From NCBI GenBank assembly GCA_023544645.1, contig JAMJFO010000030.1:1-39620 (forward strand): DNA of 39,620 nt, in the 5' to 3' direction. The notes beneath the pieces were generated by a model that worked only from the letters and a program-made list of their open reading frames with translations, did no database searches and was not told the DNA's origin. The translations under genes were made by a program, and so were the position numbers. The DNA comes from Desulfobulbaceae bacterium. Its GTDB lineage: Bacteria; Desulfobacterota; Desulfobulbia; Desulfobulbales; Desulfobulbaceae. Positions 24,531-30,246 of the stretch are shown piece after piece; the stretch's first letter is position 1, and every line of letters begins with the position of its first letter.

Positions 24531-26657
24531 CTATTTCGAATCCAGCTCCCAGACCCCTGTCCAAGCTTCGATGTCCATGTCCTGCAGCTCCTGGCATTTG
24601 GCACAATATGCCCGGGCAGCGGGATCTTCGTTTTCACGGCTCTTGAAGACTTCAAACGCGCTGGTAAAATCTCCCATATAAAAAAGATCCAGACCGCGGT
24701 TGAAATCCTGATTTCTTTCCGGGATCCTGCCCCAGGAAATCGGTTCATAGACCGTTACCGGCTCTTTACGGCCAACTACTCTGAGCCTGCCGAGCTCCCG
24801 GCAATAAAAGGAATCGCCAAGCTGGTCAAATGTAGAGGAAGATATCATCGTATACGTACCATAATACTTGTTGGCTCCTTCGAGCCGGGCAGCAAGGTTG
24901 ACAGCGTCACCGAGCACGGTGTAGTCAAACCTGCTGGATGAACCCATGTTGCCGGCGATGGCTGATCCGGTATTGATGCCGATGCGCATAAACAGCTCCT
25001 TCCCGTATTTATCCAGGAAGCAGGGCCTCAGCTCATCGAGCTTTTCCTGGCATCGCAGCGCAGTTCTCACGGCCTTTTCTGCATGATTGTCCACATCCAG
25101 CGGCGCATTCCAGAAGGCAATGATCGCATCGCCTTCAAACTTATCCACCGTGCCCTCTTCCTCCAGGATGATATCGGTCATTGCCGTCAGGTATTCATTG
25201 AGGAGCCGGGTCAGTTCCTCCGGCGCCAATCCTTCAGAAATTTTTGTAAAGCCCTCAAGATCGGAAAAGAACAGGCTCAGCTCTTTTCTTTCTCCCCCAA
25301 GCTTGAGAAGTTCAGGGTTGCGGATGAGTTGATCAATGACCACCGGGCTGAGATAGTGGGTGAAGGAATGGCGGATAAATTCCTCCTGGCCGTGAACTAT
25401 AAAATACGCCCTGAACACCGAAAACGCAGTTCCGGTCACCACCGCAATCTGCACCGGAACAAAGGTATAGTTGTAGCCTGACCTGTACGCAATGACGGCG
25501 ATGCCTGCCGGGAGAAGCAGGAACATGGCGGCAGAAAAAATATGACTGCGGAACGATGGGAGGATGGAGATAAAAAAGGACGACAGAAAAGTAAGCATCA
25601 TCACCGACGAGATCATCCACCAGATGGAAAGCGGGTGGATAAAATCTTCGGACAGGAGGTTGTCAAGCATGGTGGCATTTATTTCCGGTCCTGAAATTTT
25701 TCCGATGGGTGAGGTCTTTGCGTCGTACAGGGCGCGGGCGGTGAATCCGAAAAGCACATATTTGCCCTGCAGGTCCATTTTAATTTCGTCCGGACTTACC
25801 AGTCCCTGTTCAATACTCATTTCCTGGAAAATCAGGGAGCTCGCGTGCAGATAGGGAAAAGTTGAGGAGGGACCGCGGTAGTTAAGCAGGACCATGCCCG
25901 AATCATCAACAGGAATTTTTTTTCCATCAATAGACATGGTATTTTCAGCGACAATTGTTTCCGCATCCTTATGAGCGGCAAGGTACATGGCGATTCCAAG
26001 AGAAGGCAGCGGTTCTCCGTCAAACATGACAAACGGATGAAGACGCCTGTAAATACCGTCTGGGTCGGGTTGGTGCTGGACATTACTCAACAATGCCGAA
26101 CTGCTGACTATTTCGGCTAGGGGAAATGTTGCCCGGGGATATGAAGGGATAATTGCCGGGGATGAATCGTCAACTGAAAATTTGAAGGATGGCCGGGAAA
26201 TAGCCGGGGGCCATTCTGTATTAAAGGCGTGAAGCTCCCGGGTGGCAAAAACAGATCCCAGGGCGAAATTAGCCGTTTCTTCCATAGCCCGGCGCAGATA
26301 TTGGTCATCATTAACCCCTGCCCGGGAAGGTTCGGTGAAGATGACATCAAAACCAATTGCCAGTGCTCCCCTTCTCCGGCAGTTGTTGATAACCGCGGCA
26401 TAAAATTCACGGGGCCAGGGCCAGGTTTCACCTGTAACCTCGGCCATATGATCCAGGCTTTCCTGATCAACCCGAACAAAAACTATGGAACTGGTCGATG
26501 CTGTCGGCGCGGCATGCAGATTGACGCGGAGATCAAAAGTATCCGCTTCTATTCCATCGAGAAGGCCGGAAAACCAGAGAAGCAGGGAAAAAAGTATACC
26601 TGCAACTGAATGGAGAAGTACCTCCTGCCAGGATAAACGGAAAGAACGGCCGGCCAT
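24531..26657 (-). CDS. CHASE2-domain adenylate cyclase
   Basis: A 708-residue membrane sensor-cyclase. After one N-terminal transmembrane helix (about residues 15-33) comes an extracytoplasmic CHASE2 sensor domain (about 40-330), three more membrane helices (about 345-420), and a class III nucleotide cyclase domain. Catalytic residues are complete: metal-binding Asp466 (FSDLEGF) and Asp510 (KFEGDAI), adenine-selecting Lys506 and Asp584, and the transition-state pair Asn587 and Arg591 (NLAARLE). This predicts an active, ATP-specific enzyme. I use the ATG at 26657; a TTG at 26678 is in frame. The last 80 residues look like a short TPR-type tail. It follows the M48 protease gene closely. Confidence 0.9.
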   Translation of the reverse strand: MAGRSFRLSWQEVLLHSVAGILFSLLLWFSGLLDGIEADTFDLRVNLHAAPTASTSSIVFVRVDQESLDHMAEVTGETWPWPREFYAAVINNCRRRGALAIGFDVIFTEPSRAGVNDDQYLRRAMEETANFALGSVFATRELHAFNTEWPPAISRPSFKFSVDDSSPAIIPSYPRATFPLAEIVSSSALLSNVQHQPDPDGIYRRLHPFVMFDGEPLPSLGIAMYLAAHKDAETIVAENTMSIDGKKIPVDDSGMVLLNYRGPSSTFPYLHASSLIFQEMSIEQGLVSPDEIKMDLQGKYVLFGFTARALYDAKTSPIGKISGPEINATMLDNLLSEDFIHPLSIWWMISSVMMLTFLSSFFISILPSFRSHIFSAAMFLLLPAGIAVIAYRSGYNYTFVPVQIAVVTGTAFSVFRAYFIVHGQEEFIRHSFTHYLSPVVIDQLIRNPELLKLGGERKELSLFFSDLEGFTKISEGLAPEELTRLLNEYLTAMTDIILEEEGTVDKFEGDAIIAFWNAPLDVDNHAEKAVRTALRCQEKLDELRPCFLDKYGKELFMRIGINTGSAIAGNMGSSSRFDYTVLGDAVNLAARLEGANKYYGTYTMISSSTFDQLGDSFYCRELGRLRVVGRKEPVTVYEPISWGRIPERNQDFNRGLDLFYMGDFTSAFEVFKSRENEDPAARAYCAKCQELQDMDIEAWTGVWELDSK

Positions 26658-26692
26658 CTGCTCATTTAACGTTGTCAATCATGGGGCAAGGT

Positions 26693-27619
26693 CTAGGAAA
26701 TTTTCATTGCTTCTCGAAAACGCCTGGCCCGGGCATCTGGTGTCTCAGGATCTTGTTCTGTTGTTATTCTCTTTGCCAGATAGTTGATACGGCTGCTGGG
26801 CGAGGGATGGGTTTTGGCGAAGTCGCGTCCTCCGGGCTGCAGTTTTGCATCCATGGCTTCAAGCATGGTGATCAGGGAGGTCGGGTTGTATCCGACACGG
26901 CCCATGATGATTGCCGCCGACTTGTCAGCATCCACCTCAAAGGATCTGGAATAGCCATTATTGATCATAGTTGTCGTAATATCGCTGATGGTTCCTTCAA
27001 AACTCTCGACCAGTTGAGCGACCTCGCTGTCAGTCAGTGCCTTGGTCGTTTCCATGGCCAGGATCGAACCGAATTCGGTGAAACGGCCCTTCTTGATAGC
27101 CTGTAATCCGTGCTTCAATTGTACATGGCCGACCTCATGGGCCAGGACGGCGGCAAGCTCACCCTCATCGGCACAGCAGCCCAGCATGCCCCTGGTTATG
27201 AATATGAGACCGGATGGGGTGGCAAAGGCATTGATCTCGTTGGAATCAAGCACCAGAAAATGATATCCGTTGAATGTTTCCGGCAGGTCGGAAGCCCGGG
27301 CAATGGTTTGTCCCAGAATGTTGACATAGCGCGTGACCTCCGTGTTGTCGTAGGGTTTGTATTTTTCCAGAATCAAGGCCCCTACCGTCCGGCCGATATA
27401 ATATTCCTGCTCCGGAGTAAAATCATCAAATGTCTTGATGCCGGCCTTGGCCACGTTGATTATGGAACCGGAATGGCGTGACACCTGGGACAGCGTCGAA
27501 GAAATATCAGCGGAAATACAGCCGTGGAGCATGGAGGTCAACCCATATGCCCCGGCGCCTGCCAGGCTTATTTTGCCGACATGTTGAAGAAAGTCACGCC
27601 GGGAGAATATGTACTTCAT
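26693..27619 (-). CDS. M48-family metalloprotease, predicted Tat-exported lipoprotein
   Basis: A 308-residue zinc protease of the M48 (Ste24/HtpX/BepA-like) group. Zinc ligands are His161 and His165 in HEVGH and Glu228 in FEVDAD. The N-terminus carries a twin-arginine motif SRRDFL (Arg7, Arg8), a hydrophobic stretch and the lipobox LHGC with Cys34, predicting Tat export followed by lipid attachment. M48 lipoproteins are usually Sec-exported, so the Tat motif is notable. The ATG at 27619 has its own GGAGAGGGAG site, which lies in the second copy of a 41-bp duplication. The longer open frame to 27691 runs through the duplicated DNA out of frame with the SH3 gene and is not credible. Confidence 0.88.
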   Translation of the reverse strand: MKYIFSRRDFLQHVGKISLAGAGAYGLTSMLHGCISADISSTLSQVSRHSGSIINVAKAGIKTFDDFTPEQEYYIGRTVGALILEKYKPYDNTEVTRYVNILGQTIARASDLPETFNGYHFLVLDSNEINAFATPSGLIFITRGMLGCCADEGELAAVLAHEVGHVQLKHGLQAIKKGRFTEFGSILAMETTKALTDSEVAQLVESFEGTISDITTTMINNGYSRSFEVDADKSAAIIMGRVGYNPTSLITMLEAMDAKLQPGGRDFAKTHPSPSSRINYLAKRITTEQDPETPDARARRFREAMKIS

Positions 27620-27681
27620 GCTCCCTCTCCTTCCGCAATGCGGGAGAATATGTACTTCATGCTCCCTCTCCTTCCGCAATG
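27600..27681. repeat. Perfect 41-bp tandem duplication across a gene junction
   Basis: Positions 27600-27640 and 27641-27681 are identical, with no gap. Each unit holds, on the minus strand, the end of the SH3 gene, a ribosome-binding site and the first codons of the M48 gene. The perfect identity suggests a recent event, or an assembly artefact. Confidence 0.95.
27616..27660 (-). CDS. 14-residue upstream mini-ORF created by duplication
   Basis: The first copy of the 41-bp repeat retains the ancestral M48 ATG (27660-27658), overlapping the SH3 stop as ATGA. Reading on gives MKYIFSRIAEGEGA and then TGA, and that TGA overlaps the working M48 ATG at 27619, again as ATGA. The mini-ORF has the same GGAGAGGGAG ribosome-binding site as the M48 gene. 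Whether it is translated is unknown, but its geometry suits translational relay from the SH3 gene to the protease gene. Confidence 0.35.
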   Translation of the reverse strand: MKYIFSRIAEGEGA

Positions 27682-28082
27682 AGCCCGCCATCTTTCAGGA
27701 AATTCTGCATTTCCACCTGGGAGATGACAATTTTCTCCATTTTATCGACCCAGGTGAAATCGACATTCTTGTTTTTCTTTTTGAAATCCTTTTCCACCTG
27801 TTCATTAAATCCCTTGCCGGCCAAAGCCAGTTCATCACTGGAAGCAGCACTATCGATATCTCTGCTGCCCGGTTTGAGAACGATTTTTTTCTTCGACAAG
27901 GCGGAAACATGCACCCATCCGCCATTTGGCCGGTTTAAAGGAACAACCCTGTACCAGTCATCTTTTTCCTGTTGGATAGTCACCTGGTCGGCGTAGGCAA
28001 GGCTGGTTATGGTCTTGGCAAGAAATGAAGGTTTATCGCGCAGTTGACACTTCCTGACCTGCACGCTCATGGTTGCTGCCAT
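27657..28082 (-). CDS. Bacterial SH3-domain protein
   Basis: A 141-residue protein whose first 60 residues form a bacterial SH3 (SH3b) fold: VRKCQLRDKPSFLAKTI, a turn with YADQVTI, DDWYRVV, and the closing GGWVHVSALS. The C-terminal half is charged and helical (lysine-rich around residues 98-106). SH3b domains often bind peptidoglycan, but I see no signal peptide, so it is either cytoplasmic or secreted by a non-classical route. GGGGAG precedes the ATG by nine bases; a second ATG at 28070 is possible. Its stop lies in the 41-bp duplication, and the upstream HD-GYP gene ends 19 bp before it. Confidence 0.8.
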   Translation of the reverse strand: MAATMSVQVRKCQLRDKPSFLAKTITSLAYADQVTIQQEKDDWYRVVPLNRPNGGWVHVSALSKKKIVLKPGSRDIDSAASSDELALAGKGFNEQVEKDFKKKNKNVDFTWVDKMEKIVISQVEMQNFLKDGGLIAEGEGA

Positions 28083-28101
28083 ATGATCTGTCTCCCCATG
28101 A

Positions 28102-30246
28102 TTAATAGTTTACCTGGCGGCGCAGATACCGCCGGTAGAAATCCTTGTCGTCGGGATACGTCTTGTTGAGAAATTCAATATAGTTGATGTTGTTTTCAAT
28201 GGCATTGGTGTACAGGTTCTGGTCGATCTTCCACCGTTGCTGAAAATGGGAACGAGCCGAATGGACAATACCCTCAAAATCTTCGAAAAGCCGATTTCGT
28301 ATGACCTCACGGAAAAAGGTAACGGTCTGTCTGAAGATATCGTCCAGCGATTGATACTCGGGAACTCCTCCTTCCCTTAATTCCTCAAAAAGAAGGGGCA
28401 GCCGCTCAAGATATACGCGATCGGCCATCTGCGCGATTATATCAGCTGTCCCCAGTATATATCCCATCAACCGCACTTCTTCAGAATCAAAGACCAGCTC
28501 CACGGGTGGCACGCTGAGCTTCGTGCATTGGATAATCTGAGAGCACTGCCTGACCATTTCGTCGTTTCTGCCAACGGAATTCAGATATTCCCGGACAAAA
28601 ACTATTGATCGCTCTTCGTGGAATTTAGTGTATTTCGCCCCAGTTCCCTCCTGATCGGAATGCCGCTGGATCAAACCGGTGTCGTGAAATAATGCTGCAA
28701 TCACTCCGTTTTCTATGGTCTCCGGGGAAAACGCTGTACCATTGATGAAGTTGCCGTGGACAAGCCTGACCACGGCGAGAACGACAGCCATGGTGTGGTC
28801 AAAATTATGGTATGAGGTATTGCTTGCCTGATATCCGGGGAATCTGCCGTGAAAAATTTTCTGTATGTTTTTATAGGCAAGGTCGAGAAAATCGTAATCA
28901 TATGAATTGGTTACCAGTGAGATAATATATTTCACTTCCTTGATAATGTCGTCCGGGCAGCCGCAGGCCAACTGCTGCTCCTTTACCAGGTTGGGATTTT
29001 TAAGCATGCCGGCGGATGGCGATTTGACAGAGGAGCTGGAAGGGATATCCTTATAACGATCCTGAATGGCCTCGATAACATCGGTGACCTGGAAAAACGC
29101 CTCGACAAGGTCGGGATCAAAATGTTTGCCCGATTCGTCGCGAAACAGCTCATATATTTCTTCCATGGCCCATGATTTCTTGTATACACGCTTGTTGGCC
29201 AGTGCGTCAAAGACATCGGCCAGGGCAACGACTCTTGCTGCCAGCGGTATTTCCTCGCCTTTTTTGGGCCTTTTGTTGTCATCATACAAAACAATGCACC
29301 CGGAATAGTGGCCGGGATAACCGGTTCCATCCCAACGCTCATGATGATTCAGGGCTATTTCACGGCACATGCTGTCGAGATCCGAGGTGGTTGACTCGAA
29401 CAGGTTGGCGCCGTAGATGGTGTGAAGTTTTATCAGCTCGAACTCATCATTGGTGAGCCTGCCGGGTTTTCGTAAAATCTCATCCGGAATGCCGATCTTG
29501 CCGACATCGTGGAGCATGGCGGCCGGACGCAGCAGATCACAGAACTGGCCGGCTTCAAAAGGATCGATGTTGTTGTTTTTCGCCCATTGGGTGTAAATCT
29601 CCGCGGAAATGGCGCTGACCCTCTGGACATGCGCGGCTGTTTCACCGGGGTCACGCAGTTCAGCCATGCGGATCATGCGCAGAATGAGCTCCTGGTTCCA
29701 TTTGGCCCGCTCTATCGCTGCCGCCGCGTAGCTGGCAAAACGCGAGATATACTGCTTTATCTCAGGAGAAAAATCCGTTGGATTGCCCTGATCATCCATG
29801 GAGTTGATCAACTCCATGACCCCGACCAGGTTGTTGCCGAGGGTCAGCAGCGGCAGGGCAAAAACGGACCGGGTGCGGTAGCCTGTTTTACGGTCAAAAA
29901 ATGAATTAAAGGAAAACGGCAAATCATCGGGAATATTATAGGCGTCACTGATGGTGACCTGTTTGCCGGTTGAAGCGCAGTACCCGACAATGGATGATTT
30001 GTCGATGGGTATTGTGTAGTAGCGGTAGTGGGAGGCGACAACGTCATTCTTGACGGAAAGACTGCTGGTCTGGACATAGTTGAAAGTGAGGCCGGACTGG
30101 GTGGCGAGAAAAATTGTGCCGGCATCGGCATTGGCTATTTTTCTTGCTTCCAGCAGGACATTATCGAGAATGGAATTTATATCTTTTAAGGACTGCAGAT
30201 TGTCGATGGTCTGCAGTATATTTTTTTCAACGTCATTCTCGCTCAT
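28102..30246 (-). CDS. GAF/HD-GYP protein with a second, PDE-like HD domain
   Basis: A 714-residue soluble protein. Residues about 20-180 form a GAF domain. Residues about 190-395 are an HD-GYP domain, the c-di-GMP phosphodiesterase type, with His206, His246-Asp247, Lys250 (HDVGKIGIPDE), His301-His302 and the intact GYP at 309-311. About twelve extra residues lie between GYP and IPLAARVVALADVFDAL. A Ser/Pro linker leads to a second HD domain (about 430-700) with YHNFDH (479-484), HD at 521-522 and a distal Asp602. YHNxxH followed by HD recalls cyclic-nucleotide phosphodiesterases and some uncharacterised HD phosphohydrolases. It heads the leftward sensory operon. Confidence 0.9.
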   Translation of the reverse strand: MSENDVEKNILQTIDNLQSLKDINSILDNVLLEARKIANADAGTIFLATQSGLTFNYVQTSSLSVKNDVVASHYRYYTIPIDKSSIVGYCASTGKQVTISDAYNIPDDLPFSFNSFFDRKTGYRTRSVFALPLLTLGNNLVGVMELINSMDDQGNPTDFSPEIKQYISRFASYAAAAIERAKWNQELILRMIRMAELRDPGETAAHVQRVSAISAEIYTQWAKNNNIDPFEAGQFCDLLRPAAMLHDVGKIGIPDEILRKPGRLTNDEFELIKLHTIYGANLFESTTSDLDSMCREIALNHHERWDGTGYPGHYSGCIVLYDDNKRPKKGEEIPLAARVVALADVFDALANKRVYKKSWAMEEIYELFRDESGKHFDPDLVEAFFQVTDVIEAIQDRYKDIPSSSSVKSPSAGMLKNPNLVKEQQLACGCPDDIIKEVKYIISLVTNSYDYDFLDLAYKNIQKIFHGRFPGYQASNTSYHNFDHTMAVVLAVVRLVHGNFINGTAFSPETIENGVIAALFHDTGLIQRHSDQEGTGAKYTKFHEERSIVFVREYLNSVGRNDEMVRQCSQIIQCTKLSVPPVELVFDSEEVRLMGYILGTADIIAQMADRVYLERLPLLFEELREGGVPEYQSLDDIFRQTVTFFREVIRNRLFEDFEGIVHSARSHFQQRWKIDQNLYTNAIENNINYIEFLNKTYPDDKDFYRRYLRRQVNY

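Follow-up and report, generated by a model that had tools for sequence, protein, structure and literature searches.

A gene junction duplicated in tandem, and the relay reading frame it probably formed, in a Desulfobulbaceae genome

Introduction

What becomes of translational coupling between two genes when the joint that couples them is itself copied? The question is raised by a locus of Desulfobulbaceae bacterium (GenBank assembly GCA_023544645.1), on contig JAMJFO010000030.1, of which positions 1 to 39,620 of the forward strand were analysed (39,620 nt, called the window below). On the minus strand of the window, a gene for an SH3_3-like protein (SH3) is followed by one for an M48 metalloprotease (M48), and their junction holds the same 41 bp twice in tandem. 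A first-pass annotation had pointed out this repeat, together with a short open reading frame (ORF) that begins in the first copy. We consider it probable that the locus records a single, presumably young, genome-specific duplication of a translationally coupled junction, which now forms a relay of 14 codons.

Results

Tandem Repeats Finder reported a perfect repeat of period 41 at 27600-27681 (2.0 copies, 100% match), which was also recovered by a second repeat search and by an exact scan; the duplication described in the first-pass annotation is thus correct to the base. The copies measure exactly 41 + 41 bp, with matching that stops at their edges and extends by no further base. This is the sole perfect tandem duplication within the window, where the chance expectation for perfect period-41 repeats is about 1e-20, and a DNA search places the unit nowhere else in the genome, the next matches being chance ones (E 0.9 and above). 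Read on the minus strand, the unit, CATTGCGGAAGGAGAGGGAGCATGAAGTACATATTCTCCCG, contains the final codons and stop of SH3, an AAGGAG ribosome-binding site (Shine-Dalgarno sequence, SD), and the start of M48, contents that agree with the earlier description. Copy 1, the first on the mRNA (27641-27681), holds the end of SH3, an SD at 27673-27668, and an ATG at 27660-27658 (ATG1); copy 2 (27600-27640) holds the second SD at 27632-27627 and the working M48 start at 27619-27617 (ATG2). The two SDs are identical, and each lies 7 nt before its ATG. Both protein sequences are unaltered by the duplication, and the distance from the SH3 stop to the M48 start is now 37 nt.

ATG1 overlaps the SH3 stop codon (TGA, 27659-27657) as ATGA and opens a mini-ORF on the minus strand (27616-27660), which encodes MKYIFSRIAEGEGA in 14 codons followed by a TGA. 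That TGA, at 27618-27616, in turn overlaps ATG2 as ATGA, exactly as the first-pass annotation had it. From ATG1, translation would begin in the frame of M48, pass into that of SH3, and halt exactly on ATG2.

We asked how often duplication by itself gives this arrangement. Units of 30-60 bp were duplicated in silico across the ATGA junctions of 40 relatives, and a relay was scored when the stop fell exactly on the second ATG. A relay was produced in 32% of these duplications: in 98% of those whose unit length was 2 mod 3, and never for other lengths. The reason is that, with a unit of 2 mod 3, the reading frame passes from that of the downstream gene into that of the upstream gene, both of which are naturally open. 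The 41-bp unit belongs to this length class (2 mod 3), so that the relay, a by-product to be expected of one duplication in three, is by itself no evidence of selection. It follows automatically from unit length and requires no selection as an explanation.

To place the duplication among related loci, we compared 59 distinct SH3-M48 junctions, namely the window and 58 from related genomes, with one genome of the organism's own species. The nearest members of the set come from the same genus (M48 identity 54-60%) and the most distant ones from records with the labels Spirochaetota and Sulfurospirillum, and the start of each junction was taken as the nearest in-frame ATG or GTG relative to the SH3 stop. 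In the other 58 junctions this start lies at -4 in 40, which is the 4-nt ATGA/GTGA overlap, at -11 in nine, at -1 in four, and at +2 to +10 in five. The stop/start overlap or near-overlap is thus conserved across classes and phyla, and the ATGA kept between orthologous pairs, the mark of a -4 overlap coupled pair, was found as the ancestral state. Among the 59, the window alone has a tandem repeat, and in no other junction is the evident M48 start far from the SH3 stop (+37 here). All 58 others are single copy and lack any tandem remnant or second diverged copy, which the first-pass annotation had named as the sign of an old, fixed state. These comparisons support its proposal of an ancestral ATGA overlap between the SH3 stop and the M48 start, with the SD within the end of SH3. 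Because the relatives' junctions are single copy and overlapping or nearly so, the overlap appears to be old and the duplication restricted, among the genomes sampled, to the source genome.

The first-pass annotation had also put forward slippage for this unit. As an origin this is not supported: the ends of the duplication share no bases, and replication slippage at microhomology was therefore rejected. The genome encodes Ku, and the LigD-like ligase gene next to it is broken up among several frames and contains an internal TAG (G000:C98, about 44,100-47,500; L215, L216, L217), being either a decayed gene or a sequence error. End joining as the origin therefore remains a guess, because the ligase beside Ku looks broken.

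A scan for tandem duplications covered 1.65 Mb, or 43% of the genome, and returned four primitive perfect cases of at least 13 bp, with lengths of 41, 14, 21, and 23. The other three have microhomology of 1 bp (the 14-bp case), 6 bp (21-bp), and none (23-bp). The 23-bp duplication, AGGAGAACGAATCATGTCGGTCG (C98:41100-41145, equivalent to L191:1100-1145), also spans a start, that of a DUF488 gene with its ribosome-binding site and ATG; here the junction is not coupled, and the ORF of 12 codons that begins at the first ATG overruns, as judged by eye, the true start. The two start-spanning duplications may reflect tolerance, because the gene stays whole. Elsewhere, a relative's sequence holds a perfect tandem duplication of 39 bp, a length divisible by three (L057:2205-2283), and a single-contig genome from the same family has a dispersed small repeat, a 25-bp tandem unit, GGTAAGCGACCGAAGGGAGACTCCG, that occurs at three sites within 200 kb (L195:2872-2947, L198:6470-6522, and L202:11583-11635).

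The upstream member of the pair is a protein of 141 amino acids (27657-28082, minus strand) that matches Pfam SH3_3 with an E value of 3e-5, just below the curated cut-off. M48 has 308 amino acids (26693-27619, minus strand) and an HEVGH motif, and its N-terminus carries twin-arginine (SRRDFLQ) and lipobox-like (LHGC) features, as judged by eye. An extended form of 332 amino acids, starting in frame at an ATG at 27691, is unlikely because 24 residues would then precede the twin-arginine signal; without the 41-bp duplication, this ATG would be out of frame with M48. Both genes belong to a genus-conserved order of a GAF-HD protein, SH3, M48, and a CHASE2-adenylate cyclase (24531-30246, minus strand). 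The SH3-M48-CHASE2 cyclase order recurs in loci labelled Spirochaetota and Sulfurospirillum and is thus a widely conserved module.

Discussion

How far ribosomes can travel between genes bears directly on this junction. Experiments on three native gene pairs of Escherichia coli put numbers on this: with 38 nt between the genes, two pairs lost 80-90% of reinitiation and one lost all of it, and coupling needed no more than the final 15 nt of an upstream gene (PMC10666635). By this measure, a bare gap of +37 should uncouple M48 from SH3. The limit is not beyond dispute, because older reporter studies, as cited in that paper, saw reinitiation across longer gaps. Given the loss of 80-100% of reinitiation at a 38-nt gap in E. 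coli, any coupling that survives would evidently depend on the relay, and coupling may have been preserved after the duplication through its two -4 joints, in keeping with the published dependence on distance. The duplication shifted the M48 start to +37 with the proteins left intact. In the mechanism that we propose, ribosomes finishing SH3 would start again at ATG1, read the 14 codons of the mini-ORF, and start once more at M48, and either SD could additionally recruit ribosomes directly.

Simple arithmetic suggests what this would do to expression. If r stands for the efficiency of reinitiation, S for SH3 flux, and i for direct initiation per site, and if occlusion of the second SD by ribosomes on the mini-ORF is ignored, M48 output relative to that of the single-copy ancestor would be r + i/(rS+i), with a range from r to 1+r. 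Output would be lower than in the ancestor where coupling dominates, and as high as 1+r where direct initiation does; the predicted effect on the protease could thus go either way. The duplication probably persists as nearly neutral rather than selected.

Several observations weigh against a young duplication that maintains coupling through a relay. M48 carries its own SD, so coupling may be dispensable. The recency of the event rests on the identity of the copies, because the closest relatives share only about 55-60% protein identity, and zero differences over 41 bp bound the divergence of the copies only at about 7%. Folding revealed no significant RNA structure at the junction (z of 0.52 for 121 nt, and of -1.14 and -0.68 for shorter stretches) and no consistent direction of change in the accessibility of the start sites; an RNA structure as the function of the duplication was rejected on these grounds.

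It is possible, though we think it rather doubtful, that the duplication is real and the mini-ORF irrelevant, with M48 initiating alone from the second SD and coupling relaxed. That SD is intact at its 7-nt spacing, a good SD can initiate without coupling, and the relay is in any case an automatic by-product of unit length. However, the first SD and ATG are identical to the second, so that if one pair is used the other should be too, and the conservation of the overlap across classes and phyla suggests that coupling matters.

We consider it unlikely that the second copy is an assembly artefact, in which an untrimmed overlap or mis-joined contigs doubled a single-copy junction. The assembly is a draft in 153 contigs, the unit has an odd, k-mer-like length, and the ends of the duplication lack microhomology, all of which would fit such an error. 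Against this, the duplication sits mid-contig, and assemblers collapse short tandem repeats more often than they create them. A genome-wide artefact of k-mer joining was rejected, there being no further 41-bp perfect duplication in the 1.65 Mb (the others are 14, 21, and 23 bp) and no shared overlap at the contig ends sampled; because the lengths differ and the contig ends lack overlaps, an artefact of joining at a single k is likewise unlikely.

A selected contingency element, in which slippage would alter copy number and tune M48 output in the manner of mycobacterial interspersed repetitive units (MIRUs) or variable-number tandem repeats, is very improbable: recombination between perfect tandem copies is possible in principle and the genome has a second perfect duplication of an SD and ATG (23 bp, at the DUF488 gene), but there are only two copies, no relative exceeds one, and both start-spanning cases are also explained by tolerance, the genes being left intact.

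The coupled relay that we favour is a natural variant of a known principle, the short coupled ORF. MIRUs, as a 2025 review recounts after Supply et al. 1997, appear to insert at start codons, and the MIRU ORF, coupled to the downstream gene at -4 nt, is described there as likely to have little effect on expression and as thought to limit harm (PMC12548453). The unit ORF here meets the downstream gene in the same way, at the level of geometry. Nevertheless, this junction is not a MIRU, because its unit duplicates the sequence next to it and has no other place in the genome. MIRUs form an interspersed family at many loci, whereas a whole-genome DNA search finds the 41-bp unit at this locus alone, and membership in a dispersed repeat family was rejected. 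Nor is it a foreign mobile insert, since it copies the adjacent junction and is homologous to the single-copy junctions of relatives.

Closer in layout is the engineered bicistronic design (BCD), in which a first SD is followed by a short ORF of <20 codons, with a second SD in its 3' end and a stop that overlaps the target start (PMC5995908). The junction likewise embeds its second SD in a short ORF that ends in a stop/start overlap; unlike BCD, which is engineered with its own promoter, it is natural, lies within an operon, and receives its own input from an upstream gene. Both relay joints share the exact geometry of -4 nt (ATGA) termination-reinitiation pairs (PMC6728339, PMC10666635), but here two such joints stand in succession, separated by 41 nt and the 14-codon ORF that links them. 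The mgtQ ORF of Salmonella, as outlined in PMC8092293, is also a short ORF between two genes, mgtC and mgtB, and it affects downstream translation, as the relay is predicted to do. By that account mgtQ uses alternative stem-loops and ribosome-destabilising codons, whereas the junction here is without significant structure. MIRUs aside, our literature search returned no report of a coupled junction tandemly duplicated in place.

More speculatively, local tandem duplication of ATGA-coupled junctions might be a general, self-buffering route to relay mini-ORFs, in which about one-third of events keep coupling automatically and output follows r + i/(rS+i). We regard this generalisation as doubtful; if it were true, many of the short coupled ORFs in genomes might be remnants of such duplications. 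The junction also supplies a simple, testable rule, by which a small duplication across a coupled junction is predicted to be tolerated if its unit length is 2 mod 3. The distance that ribosomes travel between genes is disputed, and this junction is a natural experiment on it: two genes now stand too far apart for reinitiation to be expected, and an ORF that arose as a by-product of the move may restore it.
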